Shown: positions 29,975 through 36,803 of the stretch, one piece after another | Position numbering within the stretch: position 1 is the first letter of the stretch | Layout of the letters: every line of letters begins with the position of its first letter | Assembly: GCF_014653175.1 (NCBI RefSeq) | Contig: NZ_BNAG01000001.1 | Span: 558,001-622,000 of the forward strand | Length of the DNA: 64,000 nt | Direction: 5' to 3' | Origin: Roseivirga thermotolerans | GTDB taxonomy: Bacteria > Bacteroidota > Bacteroidia > Cytophagales > Cyclobacteriaceae | Notes under the pieces: model-generated | What the model was told of the DNA's origin: nothing | What the model saw: the letters and a program-made list of their open reading frames with translations, nothing else | The model's database searches: none | Translations under genes and position numbers: made by a program

Positions 29975-31813
29975 ATGCTCGAAAATAGAAGACTGGTTAT
30001 TCAGGGTCTGTTTATTTTTGTAGGCTTGATTTTCCTCATCAAGCTCTTTGCTCTTCAGGTGGTAGATAAAACATACCAACTCAAAGCCGATCGCAATATT
30101 ATTCATACCATAACCGAATACCCCTTCCGGGGGCTCATGTATGATCGTGAAAAAAGACTCATTGTTTATAATGAGCCTATTTATGATTTAATGGTGGTTC
30201 CGCGCGACCTTTACATTGGAGACACCGCAGAGTTTTGCCAACTCTTTGACATTACCGAAGAACAATTTCGTACTAACCTGCAGAAGGCCAAAGAATACTC
30301 CGGAGTTAAACCCTCTGCCCTACTCAAAAAAATACCGCACGAAAAATATGCCCAGATACAGGACCATATGTACAAGTACTCGGGGCTATATGTAAACCCC
30401 AGAACTGTAAGAAGATATACCAAGCCTATTTTGGCCACACAAGTAGGTTACATTGGAGAAGTGAGTCAGCGAGACCTGGACAGAGACACCACCAACTATT
30501 ACAAGTCTGGCGACTACAAAGGGCTTACCGGCCTGGAACAGTACTATGAAAAGGCCTTACGAGGAGAAAGAGGAGAAAGCCGTAAGCTGGTGAATGTAAA
30601 CGGTATAGAAAAAGGAAGCTACAAAAACGGTGAGCTGGACATCCCTTCCGTACCGGGCAAAAACCTCATCACCACCATCCATCTGGAACTTCAGAGCTAT
30701 GCCGAAAAGCTAATGGCAGGTAAGCGTGGTAGTTTAGTAGCTATTGAACCCTCTACAGGAGAAATTCTTGCTATGGTTTCGGTGCCATCGTACGACCCCA
30801 ATCAGCTGTCTGGCAAGAATTTTGGCAAGTACTTCGAGCAAATTAAAAATGACACAACAGGCCCTCTGCTCAACAGGGCTATTCAGGCCAAATACCCTCC
30901 GGGCTCCATATTTAAAACTGTGCAAGCACTGATTGCTCTCGATGAGGGAGTGATTAAACCTAATGAACCCATAATTGTTGACAGACTGCGACTGGGAGAC
31001 CATGCACCGCTAGGCCCATACGATGTGGCTCGCGGTATAGAGTTCTCTTCTAACAACTACTTTTGGGAAGTAATGAGGCGAACTGTGAACCAGAACGTAT
31101 CGAGCAGTAAGTTTACAGATACACACATAGGGCTGGACAAGTGGGCAGAAGCAGTAAGACGATTTGGCTTTGGCAGCCCTTTGGGGCTAGATATTCCTGG
31201 TGAAATTGGTGGTACAGTACCTGATGCTGAATTTTATCACAAAAAGTACCCTCGCGAAAAGGGAAGCTGGGCCTATAGCACCATCTACTCTCTTTCAATT
31301 GGGCAGGGAGAGCTGGAGGTAACTCCTCTTCAGGTGGCCAATCTGGCTGCCATAATTGCCAACCGTGGATATTATGTTACGCCCCATTTGGTGAAAGCTT
31401 ATGAAGAAAATGGAGAAATCACAGAACTGGAATATGAGAAACACTATACCGGGCGTGGCGATGAGTACTACCCCGCCATTGTTGAGGGCATGGTTCGGGC
31501 TGTAAAGAAAACAGCCGGGCGGGCTGTAATCCCCGATATACCAATTGCCGGAAAGACTGGAACAGCCGAAAATGGGGTGAAGAATGAATCGCTTGATCAC
31601 TCTGTATTTATGGCTTTTGCCCCTGCTGATAACCCCAAAATTGCCATTGCAGTATACACAGAAAATGCCGGATGGGGTGGAGGCGCCTCGGCAGTAACCG
31701 CCAGCCTGGTTATTGAAAAATACCTGCGAGGTTACATTAAAGAAACCTGGGCCAAGAGAGAAGATTATATCCTTAACAAAAAATACCTCATAGGCTTACA
31801 ACAAGAGAATTGA
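29975..31813 (+). CDS. mrdA: Penicillin-binding protein 2 (elongation transpeptidase)
   Basis: 612 residues: an N-terminal membrane helix (about 10-28), a PBP dimerisation domain, and the transpeptidase domain with the SxxK serine in KYPPGSIFKTVQAL (about residue 312), the SxN motif SSNNYF and the KTG motif IAGKTGTAENG. It crosslinks lateral peptidoglycan with the RodA glycosyltransferase encoded next. It overlaps rodA by 4 bp. Confidence 0.96.
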   Translation: MLENRRLVIQGLFIFVGLIFLIKLFALQVVDKTYQLKADRNIIHTITEYPFRGLMYDREKRLIVYNEPIYDLMVVPRDLYIGDTAEFCQLFDITEEQFRTNLQKAKEYSGVKPSALLKKIPHEKYAQIQDHMYKYSGLYVNPRTVRRYTKPILATQVGYIGEVSQRDLDRDTTNYYKSGDYKGLTGLEQYYEKALRGERGESRKLVNVNGIEKGSYKNGELDIPSVPGKNLITTIHLELQSYAEKLMAGKRGSLVAIEPSTGEILAMVSVPSYDPNQLSGKNFGKYFEQIKNDTTGPLLNRAIQAKYPPGSIFKTVQALIALDEGVIKPNEPIIVDRLRLGDHAPLGPYDVARGIEFSSNNYFWEVMRRTVNQNVSSSKFTDTHIGLDKWAEAVRRFGFGSPLGLDIPGEIGGTVPDAEFYHKKYPREKGSWAYSTIYSLSIGQGELEVTPLQVANLAAIIANRGYYVTPHLVKAYEENGEITELEYEKHYTGRGDEYYPAIVEGMVRAVKKTAGRAVIPDIPIAGKTGTAENGVKNESLDHSVFMAFAPADNPKIAIAVYTENAGWGGGASAVTASLVIEKYLRGYIKETWAKREDYILNKKYLIGLQQEN

Positions 31814-33084
31814 GAAGAGAAGGCGGACTTTTTGGCGATTTAGACTGGCTGGTGGTCTTTCTTTACTTCACCCTGGTTGCACTGGGCTGGACAAACATAT
31901 ATGCCTCTGTATATGACCCGGTACAAGACCAGAACATTTTCGATCTGAGTCTGGAATCGGGCAAGCAGCTCCTTTGGATAGGTACATCAGTAATACTGAT
32001 TGTTGTCATCTTGCTTCTCGATTTCCGTATTTATGAGTCGTTTGCTCCTATTCTTTACGTGTTCATGATCTTGCTCCTGGCCGGGGTTTTGGTTTTTGGT
32101 CGCGAGGTAAATGGAGCAAAGGCATGGTTCGAGATAGGTTCGTTTCGGTTGCAGCCTGCAGAGTTTACTAAACTGGCCACGGCTCTTTTTATGGGCCGAT
32201 ACATTGCCACAACCAATGTAAAACTCACCGACTTTAGTACCCAGGTGAAGGCTCTCCTTATGATTCTCATTCCCATAGGCCTCATACAGCTTCAGCCTGA
32301 CACCGGTTCGGCTATGGTGTTCGCTGCACTGCTCATTCCACTATACAGAGAAGGTTTTCCTGCCATATATCTTATTCTGGGCATCTCTGCAGCCGTACTC
32401 TTTATTTTAACCCTTTTGGTTCCTCAGCCATATATTTTCATTGGTATAGGTTCGCTCACTCTCTTACTCATCCTTTTTCAGGAAAAAAGCCGTAAGAGAA
32501 TACTGTCGACCATTGCCCTAATGCTGGTCATCAGCTCATTTGTTTTTGGAATAGACTATTTTCTCAATAACCTAATTAAGCCCTATCAGAGGAGCAGAAT
32601 AGAAGCCATTTTTCGGCCCGAACTGGTGAACCCAAAGGCTGAAGGCTGGAACCTGGAGCAATCTAAAATTGCTATTGGTTCAGGCGGCTTTTCCGGTAAG
32701 GGTTTTTTAGAAGGCACCCAAACAAAATTTGGCTATGTACCCGAACAAAGCACCGACTTTATTTTTAGTACCCTGGCCGAAGAACATGGCTGGTTGGGCT
32801 GCGCTGTACTTATTTTCTTGTTCATAGCCTTGGTTATGCGCTTGGTTTTTATAGCCGAACGACAAAAGTCTAAATTTGCCCGGTTCTATGGCTATGCCGT
32901 TGCTGGTATTATATTCTTTCACTTTACCATCAACATTGCCATGACCATTGGTCTGTTTCCCGTTGTTGGAATCCCTCTGCCATTTATAAGTTATGGTGGG
33001 TCATCCCTATGGTCGTTTACCATTATGCTCTTTGTGCTGCTCAAAATAGATATGCACAGAGCACAGGTGCTTTCAAGACATTAG
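31810..33084 (+). CDS. rodA: Peptidoglycan glycosyltransferase RodA
   Basis: 424 residues with about ten membrane helices. Motifs: GREVNGAKAWFEIG, the catalytic-loop region ...PAEFTKLATALFMGRYIA, PDTGSAMVF and FPVVGIPLPFISYGGSSL. It polymerises lipid II. The start is a TTG embedded in the mrdA stop (TTGA), with no better ATG, so translation is probably coupled to mrdA. Confidence 0.95.
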   Translation: MRREGGLFGDLDWLVVFLYFTLVALGWTNIYASVYDPVQDQNIFDLSLESGKQLLWIGTSVILIVVILLLDFRIYESFAPILYVFMILLLAGVLVFGREVNGAKAWFEIGSFRLQPAEFTKLATALFMGRYIATTNVKLTDFSTQVKALLMILIPIGLIQLQPDTGSAMVFAALLIPLYREGFPAIYLILGISAAVLFILTLLVPQPYIFIGIGSLTLLLILFQEKSRKRILSTIALMLVISSFVFGIDYFLNNLIKPYQRSRIEAIFRPELVNPKAEGWNLEQSKIAIGSGGFSGKGFLEGTQTKFGYVPEQSTDFIFSTLAEEHGWLGCAVLIFLFIALVMRLVFIAERQKSKFARFYGYAVAGIIFFHFTINIAMTIGLFPVVGIPLPFISYGGSSLWSFTIMLFVLLKIDMHRAQVLSRH

Positions 33085-33088
33085 GGGA

Positions 33089-33616
33089 ATGACAACATCC
33101 AAAGGACAAAAGTTATCTGAATTTGAAATTGAAAAGATTTTAGGGAAACCTATAAAGCCCGACATCAAGTCCAGAAAAGCATTGGGTAGCACATCTTTCT
33201 TTTTGAAGAAATTCGAGAGCCACACCAAAAAGAGTTCTCTTAAAGAAAACCATAAGTGTGCCTTCCAAAAATATGAGCAGGGCCTATTGGCACGTGTATT
33301 TCACTCTGGCAATGTAGAAAACCTCATCTTCAGATTTGATAGCGTTTCACAAGTACTATTAATCAAAGGAAAGGAGATCATTGATCCCAAATGGTATTCA
33401 CCAATGGCTTGGCTTCTGAAACTAGGTGTTCCTTTAAGACTAGCACGCTACTTTACTGTAAATTCAACAGATTACTCTATTAATGAGATGACACTGATCA
33501 TTAAATCTGAAGATCACCTATTGGAGATGACAACCAACGGGTGGTTTTATGAAGGTCAAAGAAGATTTTTTGAACCTCTCTTTTCCAAGGAGGTCTTTAA
33601 AGAGATTCATCTCTAG
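33089..33616 (+). CDS. Unknown protein, 175 residues
   Basis: I do not recognise a family. The protein is basic and soluble with no signal peptide; one moderately hydrophobic stretch (WYSPMAWLLKLGVPLRL) lies in the middle, and the C-terminus looks beta-rich (SVSQVLLIKGKEII; MTLIIKSEDHLLEM). It sits 4 bp after rodA on the same strand, so it may ride on the mre operon. Its end overlaps the truncated C39 peptidase fragment on the other strand by 20 bp. The frame is intact and its codon use is like its neighbours, so it is probably a true gene. Confidence 0.6.
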   Translation: MTTSKGQKLSEFEIEKILGKPIKPDIKSRKALGSTSFFLKKFESHTKKSSLKENHKCAFQKYEQGLLARVFHSGNVENLIFRFDSVSQVLLIKGKEIIDPKWYSPMAWLLKLGVPLRLARYFTVNSTDYSINEMTLIIKSEDHLLEMTTNGWFYEGQRRFFEPLFSKEVFKEIHL

Positions 33617-33860
33617 CTTGTAAGCTTCCCCAAAGTTTGTCTGGTTGAAAATAGAGTTTTACCCCAATTGTCCTAAAGCCAATGGCTTCTGCGGCATCAC
33701 TTAGGCCCATCATGCTACTGCCCTCTCTTGTGGTTTCACACAGGTCACGGAGCCTTTGAATTGGGATTGTTTTTTTGTGGTGCTTGGCTACTATTTTAAG
33801 ACATGTAGGGCCACAGTCCTTTTGATCTTTTTGTTTATAAATAGGAAAGTTCAAATTCAA
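33597..33860 (-). pseudogene. Truncated C39 peptidase domain of a peptide-exporting ABC transporter
   Basis: The 87 codons encode the N-terminal half of a bacteriocin-processing C39 peptidase: QKDCGPTCLKIVAKHHKK with the catalytic cysteine, then LRDLCETTREGSSMMGLSDAAEAIGFR and GVKLYF. In intact relatives the catalytic His-Asp block, membrane helices and ATPase follow over ~700 residues; here the frame leaves the family after KLYF and ends. The start is a TTG overlapping the previous stop (TTGA). Its 3' end overlaps the convergent gene at 33616 by 20 bp, so a deletion probably joined the two. Non-functional as an exporter. Confidence 0.8.
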
Positions 33861-35374
33861 TTCTTAAGGTAACTATTAATCGTTTTATCCAATAAGTCTC
33901 CCTCCGGTCCGGGTGCATTCGGTTCAATTACTTTGCCTTGACTATCAAGAATGATATACCTAGGAATAAAGTCTATCCCTAAGTCCTTTATCAATTGTTG
34001 CTCCTCCGGGTTAATCAATAAATAGCTATGCTTGTATGTTTCCAAGCCATGACTTAAAGAAGCTGTCCTCCATTTTTGCTGGTCTCTATCCATCGATAGG
34101 TAAATGAACTGAACACCTTTGTCTTCGAAAAGAGCTCGTTTTTCTTCAGAGTATGGCATGGCTTTTCTACATGGGGCACACCAGCTTGCCCAAAAGTCTA
34201 AATAGAAGAGTGTTGAATCTCTAGCTTCTTGAATCAAATCAGATAAGCTAAACGTGGTACCTGCATTGGACATTAACACCAAATCAACAGTGGCATTCAT
34301 CTGTTTATCGTAAGCCAATAGGAATCTGCTCTCGAAAGATTCTACAAATGCAGAGTCCTTATGTTCTTTCAAAAATTTTGAGAGGTAGCCCCTTACATTC
34401 AAATTCCCTTCTTCGTAAGAAACCATTTGTTCAAGGCAAATTTCACGGGCATATTTTAACAATTCACCCTCCAAGTAATTTGGCATTAGATCATAAGCCT
34501 TTTTGTAATTGACATAAGATTTATTTCCCGATCTAAGCTGTTCACCTTTTAGGACAAATTGATTTATTAAGAAGCTCAAATAATCGCGGGCAAATGGACT
34601 TTCTTTAAATAGACCTGTTTGGTAAAGATTTGAATCGAACATTTTGTCATAAATCTCAGGTCTATTAAACTGACTGGCAAGATACCTCAGTCTTAATTGT
34701 GCCTCATGTCTGTTAATTTCATACTTCAAACTTTGGATAGCTTCTAATTCGGGATCATGTATTTCTTCCAAAGTTGTAGGTGTGGCCTCCAATTCATAAA
34801 TCAGGTTTTGAACTAATTTGTCATAAATTTCAGGATAACTCTCCAGAAGTGGTTTATTTACAGATACTCCAAATCTTTTGACAACGCTTAAGCCATGATC
34901 GACACCCTTAAAGGCTAAACTAGAGTCTACAGATATAAATAAGTTAAACAGTGAATCAGTCTCCAATAAACCCTGGCTTCTTTCTTCAATAATCTTTTGT
35001 GCATTCAATCTGTCCGTAGATTTGACTTTCAACTCAGAAGAATCCAAATCTATCCTTAGTGTGTCTCCATTCGAAATGAACTTAGTTTGTCGATAGTCAA
35101 CTAATGAGTGAACAATGGCTCTTGTAGGTTGATTCAGTTTTAAAGAAATAGTATCGATACTTTCATAAGTTACGATCCAATTATCCGATTGATGCGCTAC
35201 AGAATCTAACAGCTCAATCGAAATAGGAGACTCCGTTGAATTATTGACAATAACTATGGCTTGATTTGGTGACTCTACCAAATCAATTTCCGGAAGGTTC
35301 TTGTTCGGCTTTTTGTCACATCCTGTAAAAAATATCAGGAGAAGTAGGGGCAGAAGAAAAGCTTTCTTATTCAT
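33857..35374 (-). CDS. Thioredoxin-like (TlpA-family) lipoprotein
   Basis: 505 residues: a lipoprotein signal (MNKKAFLLPLLLLIFFTGC, lipobox cysteine at residue 19), a ~330-residue helical N-terminal region (LRLRYLASQFNRPEIYDKMF; FARDYLSFLINQF) and a C-terminal thioredoxin domain with WASWCAPCRKAMPYSEE (about residues 393-409) and the cis-proline in FIPRYIIL. The fold suggests a periplasmic redox protein anchored in a membrane. In Bacteroidota such proteins often sit next to C39-type ABC exporters, as here (the truncated fragment follows with a 4-bp overlap). A short palindrome (35376-35390) overlaps the region before the ATG. Confidence 0.82.
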   Translation of the reverse strand: MNKKAFLLPLLLLIFFTGCDKKPNKNLPEIDLVESPNQAIVIVNNSTESPISIELLDSVAHQSDNWIVTYESIDTISLKLNQPTRAIVHSLVDYRQTKFISNGDTLRIDLDSSELKVKSTDRLNAQKIIEERSQGLLETDSLFNLFISVDSSLAFKGVDHGLSVVKRFGVSVNKPLLESYPEIYDKLVQNLIYELEATPTTLEEIHDPELEAIQSLKYEINRHEAQLRLRYLASQFNRPEIYDKMFDSNLYQTGLFKESPFARDYLSFLINQFVLKGEQLRSGNKSYVNYKKAYDLMPNYLEGELLKYAREICLEQMVSYEEGNLNVRGYLSKFLKEHKDSAFVESFESRFLLAYDKQMNATVDLVLMSNAGTTFSLSDLIQEARDSTLFYLDFWASWCAPCRKAMPYSEEKRALFEDKGVQFIYLSMDRDQQKWRTASLSHGLETYKHSYLLINPEEQQLIKDLGIDFIPRYIILDSQGKVIEPNAPGPEGDLLDKTINSYLKN

Positions 35375-35795
35375 GTGTGTCTATGACACATCATTATAAC
35401 TATTTTTTTAGTAGAAAGCTAAGCTAGTCCTCCAAAAGCAGAACATTGATCTGTATGCACCGCAACTTCCTCGGTGGATTCAGATGAACCACTTTCTTCA
35501 GTGGCCCTTTTAAGGAGACACTGAGGGAGATAGAATGTGTAGAAACCCTCCAAAAGTTGATATCCACCATTACTCGAAGGTCCATAGGCTCATTTTAACC
35601 TTTGTAAGTAAACTTTTGGAGGGGTGTTACACCGCGAAAGTCCCTATTCGATTTCTTTGCGTTTTATTTGATTAATCGAACCGAAGTTTATACTAAGGAG
35701 TAAGATGAATTCCGTTCAAACAATCCATGTCCTCTTCAGAAGACCCTGAGGATGGTTTACACCATTAACTGATTTCTAGTCAACTGATAACTGTC
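35375..35795. other. 421-bp gene-poor stretch with inverted repeats and a start-less open frame
   Basis: No complete gene with a good start is seen. On the minus strand 35589-35419 is open for 56 codons, without an ATG, and would encode a C-terminus rich in Ser and Glu and ending ...HTDQCSAFGGLA; a second short frame (35764-35693, 23 codons) ends ...EEDMDCLNGIHLTP. An inverted repeat (CCCTCCAAAAGTT at 35546-35558, complement at 35611-35623) lies across it, and a related TCCTCCAAAAG sits at 35429. It precedes the worn-down peptide-export genes, so decayed precursor-peptide genes are possible, but this is weak. Confidence 0.35.
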
Positions 35796-36803
35796 TTACG
35801 CAAACCTTCGCTCCAGCACGCCCATAAAAGCCTCCACTTCTTCGCTGTCCATATCCCAGCCATCATTAAAAGTATTGGCTATATTTAGCGCTTCCTGAAG
35901 GCTTTCTGCTTCATCGATAGCTGCAAAGGCCTGTTTCATTCGACTATTATCCCCATGAAAGAGGTTGTTCTGAAACATAAATTTCTCATTCAAAGTAAGG
36001 CTGGCCTCAATTGATTTATTCACCTTTCTCTGCAGCTTTTCCGCAAGAGTCTGGCTTTTATTACCTTTTTCAAATCTGTCGTTGAGCGTTGTCGCTGCTT
36101 TTTCTTCCTTCTTTTCAACGGCAAGCTCTTCCGCCACAACTTTGGAGGCTACATTAGCGGGAACTTCCGGCTCAGTAGGTTTTTCTGGCTTGGGTTCTTC
36201 TTTTTCATCAAACAGATTGTGTAGCAAATGACCAGCATTGAGCTTTTCCAGAAAAGCAGGTGCATTTACCTCTTCCTTATTCGATTGATTGAGCCCATCG
36301 TAGATCTGCAAAACACTGGCTTTTGTATCAAAATCACCCATCTGATCCACCAGCTTTTTAAAGAGTTCCCGGTTGTTCTTTATGTATTTAAACTGTCGTT
36401 TAAAATCCTGAGGTTTAGCCAATCGCTCCAGCACCGTTTCTAAAAACACCCTGGGTTCAAACACTATGAGCACGGTATCGGCAATTGCCTGATTAAGTAT
36501 GGGTTCTAAATGCTTTCTATCAATACTGATGTGATTGGAAAGCACATTCATAAAATCCTTTAAGGCCGCCTGTACTTTCTCGTGCTTAAAATCGAAATAC
36601 GGGCTTTCCAAGCGCTCTACCTCTTTGCGCCACTGATTAAAAAGCGATCGGATGATGAAAGAGTTGACTTGTCTTGAATTGGTGAGAGAAATCAACTGCT
36701 CTCCATCTATTTTTGTATAATTTTGAAAAGTTTTATCGCAGATAGATTCGCCAATTTTCTGGCTCACTGTTAGTACTTCTGACTGTTTTAGTTGATAAAG
36801 CAT
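35796..36803 (-). CDS. Conserved unknown protein, 335 residues
   Basis: I recognise no defined domain. Residues 1-160 look mostly helical (NSFIIRSLFNQWRKEVERL; FEPRVFLETVLERLAK). A charged linker at about 190-255 is rich in Lys, Glu and Pro (EEPKPEKPTEPEVP), and the C-terminal 90 residues (LTLNEKFMFQNNLFHGDNS; EALNIANTFND) form a second conserved-looking block. No signal peptide or membrane helix, so it is probably cytoplasmic. It is divergent from the ferredoxin gene and has a good promoter. The last block resembles short conserved segments seen in unnamed Bacteroidota proteins. Confidence 0.7.
   Translation of the reverse strand: MLYQLKQSEVLTVSQKIGESICDKTFQNYTKIDGEQLISLTNSRQVNSFIIRSLFNQWRKEVERLESPYFDFKHEKVQAALKDFMNVLSNHISIDRKHLEPILNQAIADTVLIVFEPRVFLETVLERLAKPQDFKRQFKYIKNNRELFKKLVDQMGDFDTKASVLQIYDGLNQSNKEEVNAPAFLEKLNAGHLLHNLFDEKEEPKPEKPTEPEVPANVASKVVAEELAVEKKEEKAATTLNDRFEKGNKSQTLAEKLQRKVNKSIEASLTLNEKFMFQNNLFHGDNSRMKQAFAAIDEAESLQEALNIANTFNDGWDMDSEEVEAFMGVLERRFA

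Follow-up and report, generated by a model that had tools for sequence, protein, structure and literature searches.

Among described systems, the locus reported here is closest to the PCAT transporters (C39 family), which occur with HlyD and double-glycine precursors. It lies in a 64,000-nucleotide stretch of the Roseivirga thermotolerans genome (contig NZ_BNAG01000001.1, positions 558,001 to 622,000; hereafter the window) and carries the front end of such a transporter gene. Its intact relatives contain a C39-TMD-ABC transporter, HlyD and double-glycine precursors; unlike PCAT systems, the window keeps no complete peptidase, transport part, adaptor or precursor. In the pneumococcal blp locus, frameshifts or stop codons disrupt the transporter gene blpA, whose role another transporter, ComAB, can assume (PMC12150690). 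As in blp, a C39-type bacteriocin transporter gene has been lost repeatedly while its neighbours stay, whereas the window has an apparent large deletion and only a distant C39 transporter is present elsewhere in the genome. Polymorphic toxin systems contain standalone toxin-immunity cassettes that recombine (PMC3482391). The relatives of the locus, but not the window itself, resemble these: a variable pair recurs module after module, the sequences on either side of it are conserved, and these flanking sequences show signs of recombination. They differ in that a peptide leader and the 5′ end of a transporter gene make up the flanks and that what varies is a short exported peptide; toxicity and immunity are only putative here. 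Of the double-glycine precursor families, TIGR04149 (Bacteroidota) showed a similar leader to the one array precursor tested, with a weak score (E 0.00096; 19.0 bits against a cut-off of 25), and gave no match to two window-type precursors.

Our preferred reading, to which we assign a probability of roughly 0.8, is that the locus is the residue of a double-glycine peptide cluster, of which a single TlpA gene and codons 1-72 of the transporter gene remain, and that such C39 stubs form a recurrent class at a recombining C39 5′ end. The window alone is a case of ordinary gene loss. The recurrent pattern, in which front-end stubs of a transporter gene mark precursor-lipoprotein modules and recombination occurs inside that gene, is apparently undescribed; no account of stub-closed precursor-lipoprotein arrays was found in the open-licence literature searched. 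It would offer a sequence handle on peptide families in Bacteroidota and on their putative partners in immunity or maturation, and makes the pairing of lipoprotein and peptide testable module by module.

The C39 stub and the adjoining TlpA-like gene

The stub is an 87-codon open reading frame at 33597-33860 on the reverse strand. It matches Peptidase_C39 (Pfam PF03412) with an E-value of 4.4e-17 (62.6 bits; cut-off 22) over positions 2-67 of the 133 in the profile. Its start codon is TTG, since an in-frame stop two codons upstream leaves no usable ATG, and the 5′ end overlaps the TGA stop codon of the tlpA gene (33857-33859) by 4 bp. The DCGPTC motif is kept, with the catalytic Cys encoded at 33813-33815, and the half of the C39 domain holding the His and Asp is missing, as are the membrane part, the ATPase and the HlyD partner that characterize PCAT systems. 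Over residues 3-72 the stub is 83% identical to an intact 731-aa transporter from a congener, G007 (E 1e-37), and over residues 1-72 it is 86% identical to the 730-aa C39 transporter of L083, a contig of a metagenome-assembled genome. The similarity to the G007 transporter across these 72 codons is far beyond chance. With neither the catalytic His nor any of the transport parts, the stub should be unable to process or export anything.

The initial annotation had described, from the sequence, the 4-bp overlap, the intact catalytic Cys, the lack of His, membrane and ATPase parts and a fragment end inside the tail of a convergent gene, and the Pfam search and alignments bore it out. Its count of 87 C39 codons needs correction. 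In the alignments to G007 and L083 the homology ends at codon 71-72 (~33645), so that only codons 1-72 (33645-33860) are C39; the final 15 codons with the stop codon (33597-33644) are read-through, and the stop falls within the 3′ end of a convergent 175-aa open reading frame (33089-33616). The deletion junction is placed at about 33617-33645.

The tlpA gene (33857-35374, reverse strand) encodes a 505-aa protein with matches to Thioredoxin_8 and Redoxin. A C-terminal thioredoxin domain (Thioredoxin_8, E 1.2e-14 against Pfam), a WCAPC motif encoded at 34169-34183 and a lipoprotein-type start, in which a Cys follows a hydrophobic stretch, together give it the features of a TlpA/ResA-like thiol-disulphide oxidoreductase (thioredoxin-like domain, WCxxC and lipoprotein start). 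Relatives were found in L083 (73% identity), G018 (71%) and G007 (59%). A chimeric origin was considered and rejected, because the C-terminal part is G018-like throughout and unlike the C39-adjacent TlpA of G007. In the gap at 35375-35795 (reverse strand), where intact relatives hold a double-glycine precursor, no precursor was recognized. A local search of the locus for leftovers of precursor, VKOR and HlyD genes gave only noise, with none credible among the matches listed.

Neither the stub nor the TlpA gene shows loosened constraint by these comparisons. Across 62 stub codons, the non-synonymous changes per branch, derived from pairwise counts, come to about 5 for the window, 4.5 for G007 and 4 for L083, while in TlpA 15 changes are unique to the window lineage and 25 to the complete system of L083. 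As the stub has no excess of amino-acid change, either its truncation would be young relative to these splits or its 5′ end would have been renewed by recombination, two histories that 72 codons are too few to tell apart. The suggestion that the fragment may be recent or kept for another use needs amending in this sense.

Flanking genes and intact relatives

A RodA-like gene (31810-33084, forward strand) serves as the syntenic anchor, its relatives lying beside the locus in G007, G018 and G013. The convergent 175-aa open reading frame (33089-33616, forward strand) is intact and lies on the far side of the junction; no Pfam family was found for it, and a 56% identical relative occupies the same place in G013. 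It is present in 5 of the 19 genomes of the genus. The anchor on the other side is a 335-aa gene (35796-36803, reverse strand), whose relatives adjoin TlpA in G018 (59.6%) and the 175-aa open reading frame in G013 (73%). At this place G018 has the TlpA relative (71%) and no C39 gene. G013 has neither, and its 175-aa and 335-aa genes end about 30 bp apart. The RodA-side spot of the chromosome is repeatedly occupied by TlpA genes, including those of G015 and G006, which adjoin RodA without C39 (L072:8472-9974; L073:7838-12032).

In G007, an intact 731-aa C39 ABC transporter gene followed by HlyD adjoins the same RodA gene (of a RodA-MreC-MreB block), with a double-glycine precursor and a TlpA gene upstream of the transporter. 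A second G007 contig ends inside the 59% relative of the window TlpA and carries two more double-glycine precursors, another TlpA gene and a VKOR-thioredoxin gene. The two contigs likely join; the break hides the junction, and the TlpA beside C39 is not the closest relative of the window TlpA. L083 holds the whole set in one piece, with a VKOR-type gene (45% to that of G007), three precursor-TlpA pairs, the 730-aa C39 transporter and HlyD, and its first TlpA is the 73% relative of the window TlpA. Its HlyD gene, in an otherwise complete cluster, is broken into one frame of 174 aa and one of 240 aa (L083:10194-11485). The gene order of the intact relatives is VKOR-thioredoxin, pairs of precursor and TlpA lipoprotein, C39-ABC transporter and HlyD. 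Four of the six window-type precursors that were read have a CC-x-SC motif near their end (L083:2367-6373; L069:5830-7084; L070:155-412) and lie beside TlpA and VKOR-thioredoxin genes. These precursors probably give disulphide-bonded peptides, and the motif would fit disulphide chemistry by TlpA and VKOR.

A search of the whole R. thermotolerans genome found no further pieces of this transporter type, its HlyD, precursor or VKOR gene, and the L083 precursor as query gave no match there; the sole other C39 transporter of the genome is of a distant type. The initial annotation had taken the locus for a remnant of peptide export from which a deletion removed the transporter. That it is a remnant with a truncated transporter gene is supported by three findings: G007 keeps an undamaged transporter with HlyD at this place, L083 has the whole operon, and the missing pieces are absent from the genome. 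More is missing than the transporter, as the locus also lacks the HlyD, precursor and VKOR-thioredoxin genes that intact relatives carry.

Short C39 front ends and signs of recombination in the family

C39 matches were found in 197 of the 391 genomes of the family, most of them in frames of 720-850 aa and many in short ones (70-340 aa). Short forms were examined closely in 13 stretches from 12 genomes. Stubs occur in 10 of these 12 (the window genome not counted), with up to six per locus; the short frame found in G230 by the family search was absent from the open reading frames called in its stretch. Most of the 13 stretches repeat one layout, in which a double-glycine precursor, a lipoprotein and a C39 stub follow one another. 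The arrays often include one unit of precursor, lipoprotein, complete transporter, HlyD and DUF6734, with C39/VKOR-type genes in between. The array lipoproteins tested belong to DUF4221 or the 6-bladed beta-propeller family (DUF5128) or are unassigned, and window-type systems have TlpA. Stub end points vary from codon ~55 to 285, some being common to several copies and genomes. As expected from deletion, a stub in L169 continues into a piece resembling the C-terminal end of the DUF6734 gene downstream of it (weak match, E 0.001). Since the cut points differ and the short forms close modules, a single conserved stand-alone gene is a poor description of them; they resemble scars or the ends of modules. 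L159 and L169 (G195 and G296) hold whole precursor-lipoprotein-stub arrays, and a cognate complete C39 transporter was not found in these genomes. Two candidates (G260:C6:42544 and G109:C18:85854) were rejected as stubs because they look like frameshifts of near-complete genes, and the short frames in G027 and G444 because they are at contig ends.

Three comparisons bear on how these modules change. In G195, a block of ~480 bp is repeated, which runs from the stub through a shared tail and intergenic DNA into the leader that follows. Among four copies the mean identity is 75-85% over most of the stub, ~97% at the cut and ~92% behind it, while the leader is at ~85% and drops to 32-47% past the double glycine. 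Between copies, 37-47% of the third codon positions of the stub differ, compared with 3-11% of the non-coding part (p 2e-5 to 2e-11); the stub fronts therefore predate the shared tail. Joint replacement of the core peptide, the lipoprotein and the stub front would account for this most simply. Between G164 and G083, which belong to different genera, stubs are cut at the same codon behind unrelated lipoproteins, and of the third positions 44/116 differ up to codon 116 and 16/137 after it. G153 and G093 have in common C39 codons 1-125, where 0/125 third positions differ (40/150 thereafter), and the larger part of a lipoprotein gene. In G153 this cassette precedes a long C39 frame (485 codons in the stretch examined; 738 aa in the family search) and in G093 a stub. 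The divergence jumps inside C39 in the two cross-genome pairs have p-values of 1e-6 and 3e-12, which are optimistic in that the split points were picked after viewing the profiles. In addition, a 1.48-kb precursor-lipoprotein pair precedes one stub in G083 and another in G164, again in two genera. The jumps at the stub in all three comparisons, together with the relocated pair, point to recombination and to the C39 5′ end behaving as a crossover zone for cassettes. A second crossover site probably lies in the precursor gene, close to the end that encodes the leader, and the precursor-lipoprotein pairs look as if they were exchanged like cassettes.

Origin of the locus

If the window locus is such a residue, its ancestral cluster would have made, matured and exported double-glycine peptides. 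At least one deletion, ending just behind the convergent 175-aa gene, would then have left one intact TlpA gene and the first 72 transporter codons as a small transporter-less end state. In the relatives, C39 5′ stubs close precursor-lipoprotein-stub modules, and cassettes of core peptide and lipoprotein would be swapped at the C39 5′ end. Alternatively, the TlpA-stub pair may have been imported, already truncated, as one module of an array whose remainder was lost or never arrived; in that case the pair never stood within a complete operon in this lineage. The modules of G195 and G296, which exist without a cognate complete transporter, and the movement of cassettes between genera lend something to this idea. 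We regard it as unlikely, since G007 has a complete operon at this very place on the chromosome and neither a precursor nor a leader block of array type was found at the window locus. An error of assembly, with the transporter present in the strain and collapsed or misjoined, is extremely improbable: such transporters are repeated in some relatives and the G007 assembly itself breaks here, but the window lies on a 1.38-Mb contig of a genome that is 99.99% complete in 12 contigs, and a second copy of this transporter type, onto which the first could collapse, is absent. Within the preferred reading, one counterpoint concerns the TlpA gene. Because G015 and G006 hold RodA-side TlpA genes without C39, that of the window may be an older resident and not an operon survivor.

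By analogy with polymorphic toxin systems, we infer that the precursor-lipoprotein pairs are effectors with their immunity (or maturation) partners. On this analogy, and on that with blpA-defective pneumococci, the lipoproteins may confer immunity, and the TlpA kept in the window may be an orphaned immunity protein; for TlpA, a role in maturation is just as conceivable. Only tentatively do we extend this to a function for the stubs, which is rather doubtful. C39 stubs might be kept as homology anchors, the transporter 5′ end and the double-glycine leader forming a docking site that swaps peptide-lipoprotein cassettes in and out of the export position. Lipoproteins outliving their transporter, such as the window TlpA, would then give orphan immunity, which in the case of TlpA might work through reduction of the disulphide bonds of sibling peptides.

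The idea that the short form is a genuine protein in its own right, for example a half domain that binds precursor leaders and is translated with the lipoprotein, would suit the recurrence of short forms across many genomes, the 4-bp overlap with tlpA (as in coupled genes) and a window stub free of excess amino-acid change. It is nevertheless very unlikely, as the end points range so widely, both the catalytic His and half of the fold are missing from the half domain, and some stubs contain stops or have lost the second half of the Cys motif (L159:3827-4093). The dN/dS of about 0.05 among the G195 stubs that share one truncation might also speak for a functional protein, but is accounted for by recombination. 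Purifying selection as its main cause was rejected, the stub fronts being far older than the DNA that follows the stubs. The initial annotation had held that many unrelated genomes carrying the same 87-residue form would make it a stand-alone gene. Short C39 ends did prove common in the family and sparse elsewhere in the class, but they have different cut points and close precursor-lipoprotein-stub modules instead of repeating one form. The Flavobacterium loci examined showed no stubs, and short or broken C39 open reading frames occur in a few genomes of other families in the class. In two of these families' loci (L190:9245-9950 and L193:7313-8442) the C39 transporter genes are in pieces, and one of the two lies near a gene resembling a radical-SAM enzyme by its CxxxCxxC motif.
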